Source: a virus
Virus record (IMG/VR): IMGVR_UViG_3300042691_036444
Coordinates: 1-29,993 of that record
Direction: 5' to 3' (one strand)
Length of the DNA stretch: 29,993 bases
This document shows, in pieces, positions 20,479-28,871 of this stretch. The notes under the pieces are model-generated. The model worked only from the letters and a program-made list of their open reading frames with translations. It was not told the DNA's origin and did not search any database. Both the position numbers and the translations under genes were made by a program. Each line of letters starts with the position of its first letter. The first letter of the stretch is position 1.

Positions 20479-21504
20479 ATGGCCCAAACCTACCCCGACA
20501 TTCCCTCAACCAAAGCCGTCAGGGACAGTCGTCAGGACATTCTCGACCGCGATGAGGCTGTCCGGTCAGCCTTTTCGGGAACGACCTATCCGAGCACAAA
20601 TCTCGTCATCGGCATGTTCTGCTTCCGCACTGACCTGGGGCAGCTTTTCGAATTGACCGCTACCTCCCCGGTGACGTGGACACGCCTTCCGTTGGGTGTT
20701 CCGGTGCCTCTCAATCAAGGCGGTACCAGCGCGACTGACGCAGCAACCGCACGCACCAATCTTGGCCTTGGCGCCCTAGCAGTCAAAAGCACCGTGGCGG
20801 CGGCGGATATTGATAACGCCGCGATCCAGACGGCAAAGCTACAGGACGCCTCTGTCACCACAGCCAAAGTCGTCGATGCCAATATTACAACGGCGAAGAT
20901 CGCTGATAGCGCCATTACAAGCGCCAAGATCGCCGACGGCACGATCACTACCGCTGATTTAGCGGCCCAGACCATCACAGACATTCGCGCAGGCGTTGAC
21001 GTCTCAAGCCGTGTTGCAAAGTCTGGAGATACGATGACCGGCACGCTGAGCGCGCCAAACCTCATTTCAACAGGAACGGTGCGATCTGGCGCAACCGGCG
21101 ATAACGCGAGATCAACGGGTTTCAAAATCGCTGATGGGTCAGATATCGGCGAACTCAACAGATCCAACCAGTATTACGACGACCGCATCAATAACTGCAC
21201 GGGATACCTTCCCAACGGCAATTGCCTAGCCAATGCGCAGTGGACGCCACCGAATGGCAACTGGTGGACCTGGGGTCTGGGCCTTGGCCCCGCCAATCCC
21301 AGTGGCTTCGATTTCGCCGGTGGCTCCAGTGTCGCTTATCAAGCTGTAACAGTTGGCCTCGTCTATACCGCCTATGCTTTGACTGCCGATGAAATCGGCG
21401 GTGGCGAATATCATCGCACCTTCAACAACTGCAATTGCGGCGGACTGAATTGCTACACCAATTGCAACTGCAATTGCGACTGTAATTGTAACTGCAATTG
21501 CTGA
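20479..21504 (+). CDS. Tail fibre protein with C-terminal Asn-Cys repeat tail
   Basis: A 341-residue fibre protein with GGGAGA before the ATG. Order of parts: an N-terminal attachment region (1-75); LNQGGTSATDAATARTNLGL (78-97), a motif common in phage tail fibres; five to six 10-residue repeats (111-170); SRVAKSGDTMTGTL (177-190), another classic fibre motif; a W-rich C-terminal domain with C240 and C249; and a final tail from residue 316 made almost only of Asn and Cys. The tail has ten cysteines at 318, 320, 325, 329, 331, 333, 335, 337, 339 and 341. Nothing in the standard fibre families I know explains this tail. The genes that follow encode two modifying enzymes, so I propose that the tail is their substrate. 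Fibre identity is well supported; modification is inference. Confidence 0.88.
   Translation: MAQTYPDIPSTKAVRDSRQDILDRDEAVRSAFSGTTYPSTNLVIGMFCFRTDLGQLFELTATSPVTWTRLPLGVPVPLNQGGTSATDAATARTNLGLGALAVKSTVAAADIDNAAIQTAKLQDASVTTAKVVDANITTAKIADSAITSAKIADGTITTADLAAQTITDIRAGVDVSSRVAKSGDTMTGTLSAPNLISTGTVRSGATGDNARSTGFKIADGSDIGELNRSNQYYDDRINNCTGYLPNGNCLANAQWTPPNGNWWTWGLGLGPANPSGFDFAGGSSVAYQAVTVGLVYTAYALTADEIGGGEYHRTFNNCNCGGLNCYTNCNCNCDCNCNCNC
20809..20988 (+). repeat. Ten-residue repeats in fibre shaft
   Basis: Residues 111-170 read as six consecutive decapeptides, of which five match well: IDNAAIQTAK, LQDASVTTAK, VVDANITTAK, IADSAITSAK and IADGTITTAD. The consensus is hydrophobic-x-D-x-x-[IV]-T-T-A-K. 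Such regular repeats suggest a trimeric beta-type shaft. Confidence 0.85.
21424..21501 (+). repeat. Asn-Cys codon repeat at the fibre C-terminus
   Basis: The last 26 codons consist of AAC/AAT and TGC/TGT alternation broken by GGCGGACTG, TACACC and one GAC. Both synonymous codons of Asn and of Cys are used, so the repeat is held at the protein level and is not just a recent DNA slippage product. The stop codon follows the last Cys directly. Confidence 0.9.
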
Positions 21505-21516
21505 TTGGAGCCGACA

Positions 21517-22329
21517 ATGCAAATCTATCAGATCAACCGAAAAATCATGCCGTTCAGTTCGGCCATACAAATTGAAAAGGATATCTTGAAGATCTCTGCG
21601 AGATGGAAGTCGCAAGATAAAAAGCCTATCTCTCAGTCATATAATCTAGCCGAAATAATCGGTCGATATTCTGAGGATCACGGCTGCATCGCGCTTTGCT
21701 ATACACCCAGATTCAAAGACGAGCTCGTGTGGCACGAAACAACACGGTTCACCTATGGTGAGCGGATTTCCTCCGATCGTTCTTATTCTTCGATGATGCA
21801 GGACGGCCTATCGATCAACGACACACCTCAAAAACGTGGCCGCCATAATGCCGCTTCGCCCGCAGCGATACTCAAACAACGATTGGATGCGACACCCGTC
21901 CTTTATCTTCTAACGCCTGCGCGAGGATGTTCCGTCAACAACTCAATCATCGTCTTTCACGGTGTGGATCCAGATCCAGGCATTCCGGAAGAATTCCGAA
22001 CAACTCACTCGTTGAGCGTGGATGGAAACATACAGGCTCCACCAATGATGCCCTCACTCAAGATGTTTCTGGAAAGCTGGCTTCCAATAGCCATTGGAGG
22101 ACCAGACTTAATTCCGGCCGATCAAACGGCGAAATACCTCCTCACCAATATGCAGGGTGGTGAAATATACCTTGAGGCCACTGGCGGGATCTTGAATCGG
22201 TCTCGCGCCAAAAACGGTCAACAAGTGCTCCTCGACACGCGTGGCTTGGAGACTGGCGAAGAGATCACGATCAAGGCCGGATACAAATTCTGGCCGGGGA
22301 TCTCTCAAAAAAAGATCGCAATCATATGA
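21517..22329 (+). CDS. Unknown protein in the fibre-modification cassette
   Basis: A 270-residue protein I do not recognise. GGAG (21507-21510) lies 6 bases before ATG 21517, so this start is preferred over a TTG at 21505 that abuts the fibre stop. The N-terminal part holds GCIALCYTPRFKDELVWHE; the middle has a low-complexity TPQKRGRHNAASP linker (about residues 100-112); the C-terminal third (YLLTNMQGGEIYLEATGG, then VLLDTRGLETGEEI) looks strand-rich. No signal peptide or membrane segment is seen. Base composition is visibly more AT-rich than in the neighbouring structural genes, which suggests separate acquisition. It is 12 bases from the fibre gene and overlaps the oxygenase gene (ATGA), so it is co-expressed with both. 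It could be a fibre chaperone, an accessory binding protein for the modifying enzymes, or another fibre part. Confidence 0.78.
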   Translation: MQIYQINRKIMPFSSAIQIEKDILKISARWKSQDKKPISQSYNLAEIIGRYSEDHGCIALCYTPRFKDELVWHETTRFTYGERISSDRSYSSMMQDGLSINDTPQKRGRHNAASPAAILKQRLDATPVLYLLTPARGCSVNNSIIVFHGVDPDPGIPEEFRTTHSLSVDGNIQAPPMMPSLKMFLESWLPIAIGGPDLIPADQTAKYLLTNMQGGEIYLEATGGILNRSRAKNGQQVLLDTRGLETGEEITIKAGYKFWPGISQKKIAII

Positions 22330-22958
22330 GCGTGATCAGTCTCTGGCCGACGAATATCTGGGCTGAAAATTTAACCGGCATATTGTCGTCGGAGGGATTT
22401 GCTAGGCTGATCGCAATCGGTGACGAATATGAGGCCGCACATCCTCGTGCCCATAAGCCAGCTGCAATGCGCGGGGGACCTGAGGTCAGCTATAATCTTT
22501 TGAAAGACAACCGACCCGAAGCCGTCACCTTCAAGGCGATACTCGCTGAGCGTATGCGGCGTCTTGCTAATGCTGAGGGTTTTGAGGCGGACACAGAATT
22601 TGAAGCGGTCTGCGCCCTTCGCCGCTTTGGGCCGGGAGAATATGCCAAGCCTCATAACCACAGAAGCGTGGATTACGTAGCCGTCCTTTGGCTGTGCCTG
22701 GAGCAAACTGACGATCGAGGCGACCGCCACCAACTGCCCGCCGGAAACCGCCTCCACTTGATTGATCCGATTGCAGCTCGCTCCCGCTTTCTCAATCACA
22801 CGATGCTGCATGCGATACGCCCCTTACCCGGGCTCCTCGTTATTCACCCGGCTCACATCTTCCATACCAGTGAAGTCAATTTGGGGCGTACGGACACTGT
22901 AGCTCTCGTGACCAACATTCGCGTCATCGATCCGGCGCGCCATTACATCCAACTCTAG
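22326..22958 (+). CDS. Predicted 2-oxoglutarate/Fe(II)-dependent oxygenase
   Basis: A 210-residue protein resembling the phage-associated 2OG-Fe(II) oxygenase family (TIGR02466-like). The N-terminal VISLWPTNIWAENL matches the family's start. H110 and H112 in KPHNHRSVDYVAVLWL, D147 in LIDP, and H177/H180 in HPAHIFHTSEV supply candidate iron ligands. R188 in LGRTDTVALVTNIRV fits the 2OG-binding position just before the last strand. Such enzymes typically hydroxylate amino acid side chains, including Asn and Asp, using O2. The start overlaps the previous stop (ATGA); the next gene begins 8 bases after the stop. Given its neighbours, I infer that it acts on the Asn-Cys tail of the fibre. The exact iron ligands are uncertain. 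Confidence 0.78.
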   Translation: MSVISLWPTNIWAENLTGILSSEGFARLIAIGDEYEAAHPRAHKPAAMRGGPEVSYNLLKDNRPEAVTFKAILAERMRRLANAEGFEADTEFEAVCALRRFGPGEYAKPHNHRSVDYVAVLWLCLEQTDDRGDRHQLPAGNRLHLIDPIAARSRFLNHTMLHAIRPLPGLLVIHPAHIFHTSEVNLGRTDTVALVTNIRVIDPARHYIQL

Positions 22959-22966
22959 AGAACCCA

Positions 22967-24340
22967 ATGACCGAAAATCTCGAATACCGGCTCGTGATGG
23001 CGGGCCGGAACGGCTATCTGCGCGAGCTTCTCTATCAGCCCCACGTATCATCGCTTATTTGGGCAGATACTGGTGAGCCCGTTGCCCTTTCGCCCGTCGG
23101 CACAAGCTACGATCATTCGGCACCTACTTGGACAACTGCCCACCCCGTCTCCCCCGACAATCCCGCAGTCAAGAGCCGGGATATCCGCACATTGAAGATC
23201 CAGATGGGGCTCAAGTGCAATTACGCCTGCTCCTACTGCAATCAGGCGTCCCAACCCCATGAAGTCCAGGGTGACATTGGCGATGTCCAAACCTTCCTGC
23301 GCAATCTCCCGCTGTGGTTCGATGGCGGAACTGATGGCGAAGGAAGCGGCGTTCGTATCGAATTTTGGGGCGGGGAACCCCTAGTCTACTGGAAAGTGTT
23401 TCGCGTGTTGGCAGGAGCCTTGCGCTCCGCTTATCCAAAAGCGCGCTTCAACATCATCACAAACGGTGCCTTGATCGACGACGACAAGATCGAGTTCCTA
23501 GACACTCTGGGCTTTAGCGTCGGCATCAGCCACGACGGCCCGGCCATGCGTTTCCGTGGTCCTGACCCCCTTGATGATCCGACCCAACGCTCCGCGATCC
23601 GCCGTCTTTACGATCGATTGCGCCCTTGGGGGCGAATTGGCTTCAATGCCGTGCTTCACAAGCACAACACCTCCCTTGCTCAGGTTCGAGCTCATATCGC
23701 CGAGCGTCTTGGTGTGCCCCAAGATGATCTCCAGCTTTCGACCGAAGAGATACTGCTGCCCTACGACGCAGGCGGTGTGGCGCTCTCCCCTACAACCGAT
23801 GACGAGCATCGCGACTATCGGGAGGCGATCTTCTGGGAACTGGTCAAGGGCCAAACGATGTCGGTCTCGACGATGCGCTCCAAGATCGACGAATTCTTCC
23901 GGTCGATTGCTCAACAGCGTCCCTCATCAACGCTCGGCCAAAAATGCGGCATGGATCGACCAAGCGATCTGGCCGTGGACCTCAAGGGCAATGTGCTGAC
24001 GTGCCAGAATACGAGCGCTTCCACCAAGCACCGGATTGGCGGCATTGAGGCCTTTGAAGACATCCGCCTGACTACAGCGCATCACTGGACCACACGGGCT
24101 GAGTGTTCGAAGTGTCCGGTCGTACAGCTGTGTCAGGGTGCCTGCATGTTCCTAGAGGACGATCTCTGGACCCAGGCTTGCGACAACAGCTTCACCCACA
24201 ACCTCGCGGTCATGGCGGCATCTCTCTACTGGCTGACACGCCTTGTACTCGTTGAGATCGAAGGCACCGTCATCCGACGAGATGGATTGCCAACACGGAT
24301 CCCGGTCATCAGGGCTCCAGCCGACACCGTCTCAGCCTAA
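22967..24340 (+). CDS. Radical SAM/SPASM protein, putative peptide maturase
   Basis: A 457-residue enzyme. The radical SAM motif CxxxCxxC is C84, C88 and C91 (GLKCNYACSYCNQ). The GGEP motif is at 135-138 (FWGGEP). The C-terminal SPASM motif is complete: C327, then G341 with C346 (GNVLTC), C380-x2-C383-x5-C389-x3-C393, and C405. This predicts one SAM-binding and two auxiliary iron-sulfur clusters. SPASM enzymes modify peptides and proteins: thioether crosslinks, other crosslinks, epimerisation, or formylglycine in anaerobic sulfatase maturases. The first 70 residues may recognise the substrate. It is the last gene before a strong terminator, so it belongs to the tail fibre unit. The likely substrate is the Cys-rich fibre tail (inference). 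Sulfatase maturation is unlikely because no sulfatase gene is nearby. Confidence 0.9.
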   Translation: MTENLEYRLVMAGRNGYLRELLYQPHVSSLIWADTGEPVALSPVGTSYDHSAPTWTTAHPVSPDNPAVKSRDIRTLKIQMGLKCNYACSYCNQASQPHEVQGDIGDVQTFLRNLPLWFDGGTDGEGSGVRIEFWGGEPLVYWKVFRVLAGALRSAYPKARFNIITNGALIDDDKIEFLDTLGFSVGISHDGPAMRFRGPDPLDDPTQRSAIRRLYDRLRPWGRIGFNAVLHKHNTSLAQVRAHIAERLGVPQDDLQLSTEEILLPYDAGGVALSPTTDDEHRDYREAIFWELVKGQTMSVSTMRSKIDEFFRSIAQQRPSSTLGQKCGMDRPSDLAVDLKGNVLTCQNTSASTKHRIGGIEAFEDIRLTTAHHWTTRAECSKCPVVQLCQGACMFLEDDLWTQACDNSFTHNLAVMAASLYWLTRLVLVEIEGTVIRRDGLPTRIPVIRAPADTVSA

Positions 24341-25473: not shown

Positions 25474-26385
25474 TTAATTTAAGGGCCTCCGCTCGTCCTC
25501 AATCTCCGGATCAATAGTTTGGGCCGCCCTTAGTCGCCAGAATTCAGCTGCATCTAAATCTTGCGTTACCCCCTCGCCATGCTCATAAATGTGAGCAAGG
25601 CTTAACATGGAGTGCTTCAATCCGGCTTCAGCGCCTTTGTGAAACCAGTACGCCGCTTTTTCCAAATCGCGGTGTGTAGCATCGGGGTGAGCTAAACACG
25701 CACCAACGTTCTGCAATGCAGTTGGAATGCCACCATCCGCAGCAATCATATAAAATTCGATAGCCTTATCTATACTTTTCTCTACGCCTTTGCCGCGCTC
25801 GTACATTATGGCTAGGTTGTTAGCAGCGTACGCGTCGCCTTGCTCTGCTGAATCTTTGTAAAGATCGTGTGCCAAGTTGAGATCGCGTTCAACCTCAACT
25901 CCTTCCGAATAGTAGATTGCTAAACGACGTTGCGCGAGCGCTGAGCCGCCTTTTGCCGCTTGCCAATAAGCAGGGATCGCAAGATCGTGGCGACGTTCAC
26001 CAAGTGCGCCACCCGCAAACAGCTCTCCAAGCAGCGCAGAACACTGAACATCGCCAAGCTTGCTGCCTTCAAAAAAATATTCTGCTGCTTTTTGAGCCGA
26101 CTTCTCAACCCCCATACCATAGAGAAAAATCATACCCAATCCGTAGAAGGCGTCTGGAAATTCGCTTTCTGCAGCTTTCTCTAGCCAGAACTTAGACCGA
26201 CTAGGATCGGGTTCCGGGCAGAAGAGGAGCATATTGCCAAGCACCGATTGCACGAAGGAAATGCCTTCACCCGCAAGTTCTTCAAGTATCGCGAGAGCTT
26301 CATCGCGATGTCCAGCCTGGTACAGTTTCAGGGACTCTTGGTAGCGCGCTGCATTTCGTGAATCGATATCGTTGGACCCTGACAT
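25474..26385 (-). CDS. Sel1-repeat (TPR-like) protein
   Basis: A 303-residue protein built of Sel1-like repeats of about 36 residues: AFYGLGMIFLYGMGVEKSAQ, ALAQRRLAIYYSEGVEVERD, AYAANNLAIMYERGKGVEKS and SMLSLAHIYEHGEGVTQDLD are clear units. These alpha-helical solenoids bind proteins and often work as adaptors in signalling or with secreted proteases. No signal peptide is seen, so it is probably cytoplasmic. It lies 43 bases downstream of the HtrA-like protease gene on the same strand, so the two may form an operon. It runs convergently to the phage lysis genes and is more AT-rich by eye. Whether it belongs to the phage or the host chromosome is unclear. Confidence 0.9.
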   Translation of the reverse strand: MSGSNDIDSRNAARYQESLKLYQAGHRDEALAILEELAGEGISFVQSVLGNMLLFCPEPDPSRSKFWLEKAAESEFPDAFYGLGMIFLYGMGVEKSAQKAAEYFFEGSKLGDVQCSALLGELFAGGALGERRHDLAIPAYWQAAKGGSALAQRRLAIYYSEGVEVERDLNLAHDLYKDSAEQGDAYAANNLAIMYERGKGVEKSIDKAIEFYMIAADGGIPTALQNVGACLAHPDATHRDLEKAAYWFHKGAEAGLKHSMLSLAHIYEHGEGVTQDLDAAEFWRLRAAQTIDPEIEDERRPLN

Positions 26386-26428: not shown

Positions 26429-27706
26429 TTATCGTATCTTTCCATTCTCGTTAATGACAAAGACGTCACGCACTTCAAGTGTCCGAACGAAAAAATCATA
26501 GCGCCCACTGATCATTGTAAAACGCGGGTAGCGGACAATGACCTCGACATCACTCCCTTCGCGGTCTTTGAGCGCTGCAAGAATGTCTTCAGGGCTCTTC
26601 ACTGTAACGCCATCAATCGAGAGGACTTGATAGCCTTCACGAAACTGCGCCTGCTCTGCAACCGAGGCATCATCGAGAAACTGAATCCACATTACGGTAG
26701 GATCGTAGCCTGTGACCGTAGACCGGCCAATGACCATGCCCGACACATGAACACCCAACCGCTTCACCGGATCACGCCGCGTCAGCGCTGCGAGTTCTAC
26801 ACTTTTGGTTTCCTTGCCTCGACGGATCTGCACTTGAACGGGACCGCCGCCCCGGAAATAGCTAACGAAGCGAGTCGAGAAGCGTGCTGTTTCGTCACCA
26901 TTGACACCAAGGATGCGATCTCCCGGCTTCAGCATGTCGGCCCAATCGCCATCAGATTGCGCAACAACAAGTTCGCGTTCCTTCGAAGTCGTTGCGAACG
27001 TGACCGGAAGAACCGGCGGTGATGGATCTTTGCCTTGTTTGAGCAGGCTCAGGATGTTGCAGGCTTGCTTAGAGGGGACTGCGAAGTTCAAGCCCTCAGA
27101 CACAGATTTGCTAAATCCTGACGCGTTCACGCCAACGACGATCCCAGATTGCGCATCAATGAGAGCGCCACCTGAATTGCCTGGGTTAAGTGCAGCATCT
27201 GTCTGAAGGCTTTCTTCTCCCTCAAGAGACTTTGTGCCGCTGATAATCCCTCGGGTCGCTGTGTAGTCCAATCCCCAGGGGTGCCCAAAGGCGATGACTG
27301 GCAAGCCCGCTGCGGGCTCACCCACACACTTCATTTCGGCGACAAGCGCCTCAGCGGGGATGTTTGCGGGGTCTACTCGCAGAACAGCCAAATCCAGATG
27401 GTTGTCGACGTAGATTTTCTCTACCTTTGAATAGGGACGGTCCTTGAAGCTCACCCGGACAGTGGATGGTGACTTCCCGGCTACGTGTGCATTCGTGAGG
27501 ATCCAGCCACGCTCGCGGTCCACCAAAAAGCCGGAGCCCCGCCAAGTCCCCTTCTTTTCGTTACCAAATGAGTAATCTACCGCCGTGGTAATTTTGACGG
27601 TGTACCGACCAGCCGCCTCGATCACGTCGTTAGCCAGCGCGGGCTGAATTGCTTGTGTAGCAATAAGCGTTGCGAAAATTGAACCTATGCCAAAAGACCG
27701 AATCAT
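26429..27706 (-). CDS. Secreted HtrA/DegP-like serine protease with two PDZ-like domains
   Basis: A 425-residue protein with an N-terminal signal peptide (about 1-25, FATLIATQAIQPALA). The trypsin-like domain carries the triad H74 (LTNAHVAG), D105 (HLDLAVLRV) and S178 (NPGNSGGAL). Two PDZ-like modules follow (about 235-312 and 318-405: WADMLKPGDRILGVNGDE, EGYQVLSIDGVTVKSPEDIL). It would work in the periplasm on misfolded or specific proteins. The start is supported by a G-rich site (complement of 27714-27718) 7 bases upstream of the ATG. It is shorter than housekeeping DegP (about 470-500 residues) and may have a specialised role, perhaps with the Sel1 protein. No phage link is visible. Confidence 0.92.
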   Translation of the reverse strand: MIRSFGIGSIFATLIATQAIQPALANDVIEAAGRYTVKITTAVDYSFGNEKKGTWRGSGFLVDRERGWILTNAHVAGKSPSTVRVSFKDRPYSKVEKIYVDNHLDLAVLRVDPANIPAEALVAEMKCVGEPAAGLPVIAFGHPWGLDYTATRGIISGTKSLEGEESLQTDAALNPGNSGGALIDAQSGIVVGVNASGFSKSVSEGLNFAVPSKQACNILSLLKQGKDPSPPVLPVTFATTSKERELVVAQSDGDWADMLKPGDRILGVNGDETARFSTRFVSYFRGGGPVQVQIRRGKETKSVELAALTRRDPVKRLGVHVSGMVIGRSTVTGYDPTVMWIQFLDDASVAEQAQFREGYQVLSIDGVTVKSPEDILAALKDREGSDVEVIVRYPRFTMISGRYDFFVRTLEVRDVFVINENGKIR

Positions 27707-27929: not shown

Positions 27930-28871
27930 TCAGCTTGCAGTTTGCTGAGGTCCCTCTTGCCCCGCCTCCCATTCCGCATAGGTGTTGCCATCCGGCAATT
28001 TCCATAAGGTGCGCCCATTCGCGCTCGCACCAATGACTGCTGCTGCGGCGGCCGAGGGTGAAGAAAAATTGTAGCTACTGGTGAATACCAGAAAATCAAT
28101 ATCGCGCCGGAGCACGCCCTTTTCGAGTAGTGTTTCCCGAATGGCTGCCGTCGCCTTTGGTACAGTTGGTGTTGCACGGGCCCGGGCCTTTGATCCCTCA
28201 GCCACGACGAACTCTCCGGACGAGCCAACCACCATTTTAGCAGCGTATCCTTCTCCTATGAAAGAGAATACCACTGAACCGCAACTGGCTGGTTGAGTGA
28301 CGTTGGGGCCAAGGTCAAACGAATCCTGTGCGCGTCCTTTCATCTCGCGGAACAGATCCCATCCGAGCGCTCCGACCAAAGTCTTTGTCTGATCGACGAA
28401 CTCGTCCATGTCGACGCGATCCTGAAGTGGCAGCTTACCTGCATCATTAGAGGGTCTTTTGCTATTTGGAATGGACCACCGAACACTGCTACCTATGTTG
28501 CGGATAAGCGACGACTCTACATATCGAGCATGACTTTTCGTAAGGTTCTCATCCTTGCTGATCAGTACAACCGTATCTGTCCAGAAGCCTTTGGCGTCTC
28601 GGCCAGACTCATTCGAATTATGGTAAGAGAGCCGTGCGCCAACGCCCTCCGACTCGCCAATATAAGCAAGTTGCCTGTCCTGATGATTTTCATCTGCCCC
28701 GATTAGAATATAGACACCAGGCCGCTCGATTTCTGGAAACGTCTCACGCACACGCCGCAACTGATTGCGACGAAAGGCAATAGCCTGGATCGTAGACATA
28801 GAAATCTGGGCAACACGTATCCCGCTTGGATCTCCATCGAGAAGGAAAATGTTGATCGAGCGGGGCTTCAT
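27930..28871 (-). CDS. GIY-YIG nuclease-like protein with C-terminal DUF4357
   Basis: A 313-residue protein. The N-terminal SINIFLLDGDPSGIRVAQI is typical of this family. The GIY-YIG domain follows: GVY at 52-54, YIG at 70-72 (AYIGESEGVGARL), R80 and the metal-binding E119 (YVESSL), all expected catalytic positions. The C-terminal SAAAAAVIGASANGRTLWKL (about 273-292) marks a DUF4357 domain. Proteins of this type often occur in restriction and defence loci. The start overlaps the stop of the type III restriction gene by 4 bases (ATGA), so they are co-transcribed, and it may be a nuclease partner of that system. Confidence 0.88.
   Translation of the reverse strand: MKPRSINIFLLDGDPSGIRVAQISMSTIQAIAFRRNQLRRVRETFPEIERPGVYILIGADENHQDRQLAYIGESEGVGARLSYHNSNESGRDAKGFWTDTVVLISKDENLTKSHARYVESSLIRNIGSSVRWSIPNSKRPSNDAGKLPLQDRVDMDEFVDQTKTLVGALGWDLFREMKGRAQDSFDLGPNVTQPASCGSVVFSFIGEGYAAKMVVGSSGEFVVAEGSKARARATPTVPKATAAIRETLLEKGVLRRDIDFLVFTSSYNFSSPSAAAAAVIGASANGRTLWKLPDGNTYAEWEAGQEGPQQTAS

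Follow-up and report, generated by a model that had tools for sequence, protein, structure and literature searches.

A radical SAM/SPASM enzyme paired with a cysteine-repeat tail on phage fibre proteins: a candidate system for thioether-linked fibre tips

The peptide NxxcA contains a thioether between a Cys and the C-beta of an Asn, which stands three residues before the Cys, and Cys-Asp thioethers are known for freyrasin and QhpD (PMC8326336). The freyrasin enzyme PapB accepts Cys-Xn-Asp with n from 0 to 6 and makes both in-line and nested rings (PMC9413430). The auxiliary clusters of CteB include one whose open site faces the active site and has been proposed to bind the substrate thiol; peptide epimerases (PoyD/OspD, YydG/EpeE) rely on an additional catalytic Cys, and those of the proteusin type are without auxiliary clusters (PMC8326336). 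Here we describe a viral locus in which a radical SAM/SPASM enzyme is encoded downstream of a tail fibre-like protein that ends in a Cys-rich tail. It lies in the IMG/VR virus record IMGVR_UViG_3300042691_036444, positions 1 to 29,993; this whole stretch of 29,993 nucleotides is called the window below, and coordinates refer to it unless a locus is named. We estimate, with a probability of about 0.6, that the enzyme turns the tail into a thioether-cross-linked, ranthipeptide-like fibre tip. We know of no described phage in which radical peptide chemistry builds virion parts, and in the open-licence literature no description of such a system was found.

The fibre gene (20479..21504, plus strand) codes for 341 residues. 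The product has PHROG tail fibre matches in its middle part, and just upstream lies a gene for a J-type tail tip protein, in agreement with an earlier sequence-only reading that had called it a phage fibre. The C-terminus reads NNCNCGGLNCYTNCNCNCDCNCNCNC. The last 24 residues, CNCGGLNCYTNCNCNCDCNCNCNC, contain ten Cys, and the tail, which we propose to be the modified core (21424..21501, plus strand), makes up the final 26 codons of the open reading frame, with Cys as the last residue before TGA. The C-terminal position of the tail, its ten Cys in 24 residues and its terminal Cys had all been described in that reading and hold up. The alternation of Asn or Asp with Cys, also described there, is strict only for the last seven Cys: it is interrupted twice, by GGL and by YT. 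The codons are mixed (AAC/AAT and TGC/TGT), the array is the strongest tandem repeat within the window, and the Rfam scan gave no match in the region. The tail is predicted to be without a stable fold (predicted local distance difference test, pLDDT, about 31-44). Before it stands a tip domain that is conserved in alignments (NNCxGYxPNGNC...PPNGNWWTWG...DEIGGGEYxR; 21049..21423, plus strand); its model is weak (mean pLDDT 59.6) and a fold search with it returned no match.

In the window the radical SAM/SPASM gene lies 1.5 kb downstream of the tail. Relatives of the locus were collected by one IMG/VR scan that started from the enzyme and gave 442 relatives. Among the 80 best of these loci, a protein ending in x-Cys (xC) repeats is encoded in nearly every one that has enough upstream sequence. 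Such a start is biased, and three controls were run on the linkage. In a scan of viral contigs that was blind to the enzyme, a DNA pattern for (NC)3[ND]C was searched irrespective of genes, matches with at least 2.5 kb downstream were scored, and the enzyme counted as linked if it was encoded on the same strand no more than 5.5 kb away. The enzyme is found beside 43 of 44 in-frame matches but beside none of nine out-of-frame matches (Fisher 2e-9), where, as in the other linkage counts, related contigs are taken separately, so that independent events are overstated. The sole in-frame match without the enzyme (L148) lies in an odd, short open reading frame and consists of an (NC)8 that resembles a microsatellite. 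When Ser replaces Cys in the pattern, (NS)3[ND]S, the enzyme stands beside 0 of 30 matches. Finally, with the tip domain as query, without the tail, the xC tail was kept in all 45 scorable relatives, and the enzyme was found within the fetched flank in 42 of these 45. Taken together, the enzyme-blind scan, its out-of-frame matches, the Ser control and the tail-blind search rule out that the linkage is an artefact of the enzyme-based start.

The linkage persists across many unrelated fibre ends and very different enzyme lineages: pairwise identities of the linked enzymes go down to about 29%, and some loci hold further, more distant enzymes. Where the enzyme match is good, 238 of 298 loci have a Cys run nearby, defined as at least four alternating Cys. 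Of the remaining 60, about half are without upstream sequence; where 5 kb or more is available, nine or more loci have Cys tails that are shorter or interrupted (e.g. L298, L324, L339, L344). Judged as genomics, the pairing of tail and enzyme is close to certain: the genes for a Cys-rich candidate substrate and for a SPASM radical SAM enzyme are here linked. The sequence-only reading had proposed a role for the tail independently of any enzyme; this is contradicted by the pairing in the enzyme-blind scan. Four loci (L092, L098, L142, L152) have small proteins of 67-79 residues ending in (NC)4. In L092 and L142 three or four different radical SAM genes follow, and for the L098 enzyme the nearest profile is PapB (E 2.6e-35).

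The tail also shows clear signs of selection on the protein. In the nearest relative, L199, it has the same 26 residues as in the window in spite of several synonymous codon differences. Between related tail pairs, which are not independent of each other, there are 179 synonymous differences in Cys codons versus 14 differences to or from Cys. Both results support what had been suggested from the mixed codons, namely selection at the protein level. Relatives with a lost or randomised tail, which would have spoken for a neutral expansion, were not seen among the 45 scorable tip relatives. The residue before Cys is Asn in 66%, Ala in 18% and Asp in 10% of cases. Gly is found there once in 906 (0.1%) against a background of 12.5%, and Ser and Thr are nearly absent. 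The number of Cys per run is four to eleven by the criterion used, with shorter tails (about three) also present, and 59 tails terminate exactly at the last Cys of the run. Across 159 non-redundant loci, the set used for all locus composition counts, the x residues show no clear correlation with accessory enzymes. Variant tails of the type NCMSYCSYCSYCTYCNCNCDC, with a three-residue Cys spacing ahead of the xC run, occur in L042, L044, L212 and L278.

The proposed maturase (22967..24340, plus strand) matches the PHROG 1802 profile (phrog_1802, E 8e-55) over residues 58-432, and scores above the cutoffs of PF04055 and of TIGR04085 (35.5 bits versus 27). In an alignment of 153 non-redundant enzymes the CxxxCxxC motif of the SAM-binding 4Fe-4S cluster (C84, C88, C91; 23216..23239, plus strand) is invariant in 153/153, and these Cys together with G135-G136-E137 (GGE) are conserved in at least 97%. 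The SPASM region (23945..24181, plus strand) was compared with the motif CX9-15GX4C ... CX2CX5CX3C ... C. Its seven Cys (C327, C346, C380, C383, C389, C393, C405) have the spacing C327-X13-G341-X4-C346, C380-X2-C383-X5-C389-X3-C393 and C405, found in 152-153 of the 153, and are expected to bind two auxiliary clusters. In all, the alignment has ten conserved Cys columns and no others, namely the three of the SAM cluster and the seven of SPASM. The aligned sequences of anaerobic sulfatase maturating enzymes (anSME) have an extra Cys between the first two SPASM Cys, while CteB and the family studied here are without it. Because the SPASM set is in this respect CteB-like and there is no extra Cys of the epimerase kind, the sequence points, with moderate confidence, to thioether formation. 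Enzymes that modify peptides or proteins are found among the closest curated families and structures: the nif11 maturase, PapB, QhpD, anSME and CteB.

We favour the explanation that the radical SAM/SPASM enzyme, whose gene lies downstream in this gene row, uses the tail as its substrate. Once the fibre protein has been translated, the enzyme would take a hydrogen from an Asn, Asp or Ala next to or near a tail Cys; the sulfur of a Cys would then attack at that position, and the result would be a series of thioether rings of the ranthipeptide or sactipeptide type. The product would be a rigid, oxidation-proof and protease-resistant tip at the fibre end, most likely touching the host surface, and the rings would keep this exposed tip from disulfide scrambling outside the cell. 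A 2-oxoglutarate (2OG)-Fe(II) oxygenase, or elsewhere a second radical SAM enzyme, would add an optional modification, and a further protein of the gene row, m0, would likely serve as chaperone, adaptor or cap. That the enzyme acts on the tail is very likely, the odds favour thioether chemistry, and a receptor role for the tip is plausible; that the modified tail is present in virions we infer from the genes. An (NC)n array is a series of overlapping NxxC motifs, where each Cys after the first stands three residues past an Asn, and the near-absence of Gly before Cys is as expected if a side-chain carbon is used.

Several observations weigh against this explanation. The curated NCBIfam equivalog cutoffs are far missed (PapB 68/340, QhpD 67/453, nif11 71/519 and SCIFF 46/425 bits), and the reaction may therefore be a different one. 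No RRE (RiPP recognition element, RiPP being a ribosomally synthesised and post-translationally modified peptide) was named by the Pfam or NCBIfam scans. Ala, which takes up 18% of the x positions, does not offer a functional group beside C-beta as the acceptors of known ranthipeptides do, and this is a difficulty for a uniform C-beta reaction; in sactipeptides, links from Cys to the alpha carbon of Ala are known. Further, 58 of the 159 loci have neither the oxygenase nor a second radical SAM enzyme, so the accessory chemistry is non-essential. Finally, among the loci with 5 kb or more of upstream sequence, five of Bacteriovoracaceae/Bacteriovorax (L226, L246, L250, L253, L260) have a relative of the enzyme with no tail seen, which may represent a different, non-phage use of the family.

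A different role for the tail Cys is conceivable, in line with the sequence-only reading. They could bind Zn, Fe, Cu or an Fe-S cluster, or they could form inter-chain disulfides across the trimer; the enzyme would then be a helper or act elsewhere, and the CxC repeats of the three chains would correspond, with thiol ligands, to the HxH iron sites known from T4-type fibres. As metal ligands CxC repeats are plausible, and for HxH motifs in fibre tips iron binding has been established and is discussed as a receptor trick (PMC11705849); near-exclusive Asn, Ala and Asp between the Cys could suit a compact array. However, the near-constant presence of a SPASM radical SAM enzyme beside the tail is then left unexplained, a length range of about three to eleven Cys is odd for a defined metal site, and Gly and Ser should be tolerated in CxC metal repeats, yet are nearly absent. 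His, the ligand of the HxH sites, is absent from the window tail. Since a passive site would need no dedicated SPASM maturase, metal or disulfide roles are no longer the simplest reading, and we consider them unlikely, although the tail could still bind metal before a modification or after it. The repetitive nature of the tail would also fit a neutral tandem-repeat expansion beside an unrelated metabolic enzyme gene, to which we give practically no chance: the tail Cys codons change almost only synonymously, which takes neutral expansion out, and it is refuted as well by the tail retention (45/45) and the linkage (43/44 versus 0/9 and 0/30), with the mixed codons also against it.

If the enzyme does modify the tail, two other reactions can be considered. 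Acting like an anaerobic sulfatase maturase, it would convert tail Cys to formylglycine or another oxidised residue and thereby create an aldehyde-rich, sticky tip. In its favour, one of the nearest solved structures is that of anSME, and the homologue in the Achromobacter phage carries the annotation of an anaerobic sulfatase maturase, but this annotation rests on general similarity. The eighth SPASM Cys, which goes with fully Cys-ligated auxiliary clusters in anSME, is not found in the enzyme family, and the window tail is without the CxPSR of sulfatase maturase substrates, which makes this reaction quite improbable. Even smaller is the chance we give to an epimerisation of every second residue in the manner of PoyD on polytheonamide, by which an alternating D/L chain, possibly a beta-helix and perhaps membrane-active, would arise. 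The two-residue periodicity does resemble polytheonamide, where a first epimerisation directs the next ones two residues away (PMC8326336). Against it, the enzyme has a full SPASM set in place of a reduced cluster set, all Cys conserved across the 153 sequences are accounted for by the ten cluster ligands, which leaves none as the extra catalytic one, and the tail Cys would have no role.

The predicted system is present, on a tail protein, in hundreds of uncultured phages and prophages: its carriers are metagenomic phages as well as contigs from the genomes of bacteria. Isolates among the carriers include Limnohabitans, Rhodobacteraceae, Rhodoplanes, Bradyrhizobium, Burkholderia and Magnetospirillum, and L199, nearest to the window with 91% enzyme identity besides the identical tail, is a metagenome-assembled genome of Beijerinckiaceae. 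Among 50,697 phage records a good match to the main enzyme family was found only in the cultured Achromobacter phages JWF and 2-1, and both carry an xC tail two genes upstream of the enzyme. In about 16 of the 159 loci, including these two phages, the run is followed by a Hint (intein-like) domain, placed at its last Cys or immediately behind it, and in JWF and 2-1 the first Cys of the Hint domain is that last Cys. It follows the tail directly in L081 (4727-6178), L082 (4733-6175), L020 (2-847), L058 (5413-6354) and L039 (5501-7072), and likewise in L140, L150, L214-L216, L220 and L248. Self-cleavage by Hint could expose the tail as a C-terminus or activate it.

Between the fibre and the enzyme two more proteins are encoded in the window. 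The first, m0 (21517..22329, plus strand; 270 residues), belongs to no known family and is a two-part beta protein with a C-terminal immunoglobulin (Ig)-like domain. Its cluster is present in 104 of the 159 loci, and m0 or a positional substitute in 143. A fold search with its model (pLDDT 81.5) matched only the Ig-like domain, to intimin D0-D1 (Z 9.7, root-mean-square deviation 2.0, 79 residues); the N-terminal part was barely covered, and the phage relatives in BFVD are uncharacterised. Such a domain fits a role at the virion surface or as adaptor, and m0 is likely an accessory of the virion, an adaptor or a chaperone. No support was obtained for homology between m0 and JWF gp29-type proteins. 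The second is the 2OG-Fe(II) oxygenase-like protein (22326..22958, plus strand; phrog_81, E 4e-9), a frequent but optional accessory found in 89 of 159 loci, with a second radical SAM enzyme in 14. Further away, by the endolysin region, a Sel1-repeat protein (25474-26385) and an HtrA-like trypsin/PDZ protease (26429-27706), both on the minus strand, may be host genes or phage cargo. Two more minus-strand genes, one for a GIY-YIG/DUF4357 protein (27930-28871) and one for a restriction endonuclease-like protein of which the C-terminal part is present (PF19778; 28868-29992), possibly mark a prophage edge or defence cargo.

Somewhat more probably than not, in our view, these loci represent a widespread and undescribed strategy, by which phage-encoded radical SAM machinery puts thioethers or new cross-links on the C-termini of virion fibres and so produces RiPP-like receptor-binding tips, varying in length and composition by repeat number. 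If this is true, viruses build a part of the virion by radical peptide chemistry, and many radical SAM and 2OG-Fe(II) oxygenase genes that are called auxiliary metabolic in viral metagenomes gain a function. It would also be a natural, encoded display of stapled peptides on phage, and provide chemists with hundreds of enzyme-substrate pairs. The cultured phages JWF and 2-1 make the system testable by mass spectrometry.

Among known systems, the ranthipeptides (NxxcA/NxxcB, freyrasin PapA/PapB, SCIFF CteA/CteB) resemble it in having a SPASM radical SAM enzyme near a Cys-rich substrate; the seven-Cys SPASM pattern is CteB-like, and C-beta thioethers from Asn or Asp to Cys are known in them. However, their substrate is a small leader-core peptide, while here it would be the C-terminus of a phage tail protein with a strict xC dipeptide repeat; no RRE was identified here by the profile scans, and the thioether linkage is a proposal. 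QhpD, the maturase of quinohemoprotein amine dehydrogenase, is likewise a radical SAM/SPASM enzyme, and what it modifies by linking Cys to acidic residues is a functional protein and no peptide natural product. Its profile matches the window enzyme significantly, yet far below the 453-bit cutoff; QhpD itself is bacterial and acts on an unrelated substrate. Short, repeated, metal-ligand-like motifs in a fibre are also seen in the HxH iron sites of T4-type fibre tips, to which the Trojan or Ferrojan horse hypothesis refers, but the window tail has Cys in place of His, is C-terminal, unstructured in the model and linked to an enzyme. The phage radical SAM proteins of PHROG 1802, such as gp30 of Achromobacter phage JWF, belong to the same enzyme family. 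They are known only as an unassigned annotation, and in JWF and 2-1 the tail is followed by the Hint domain that could expose it by self-cleavage.
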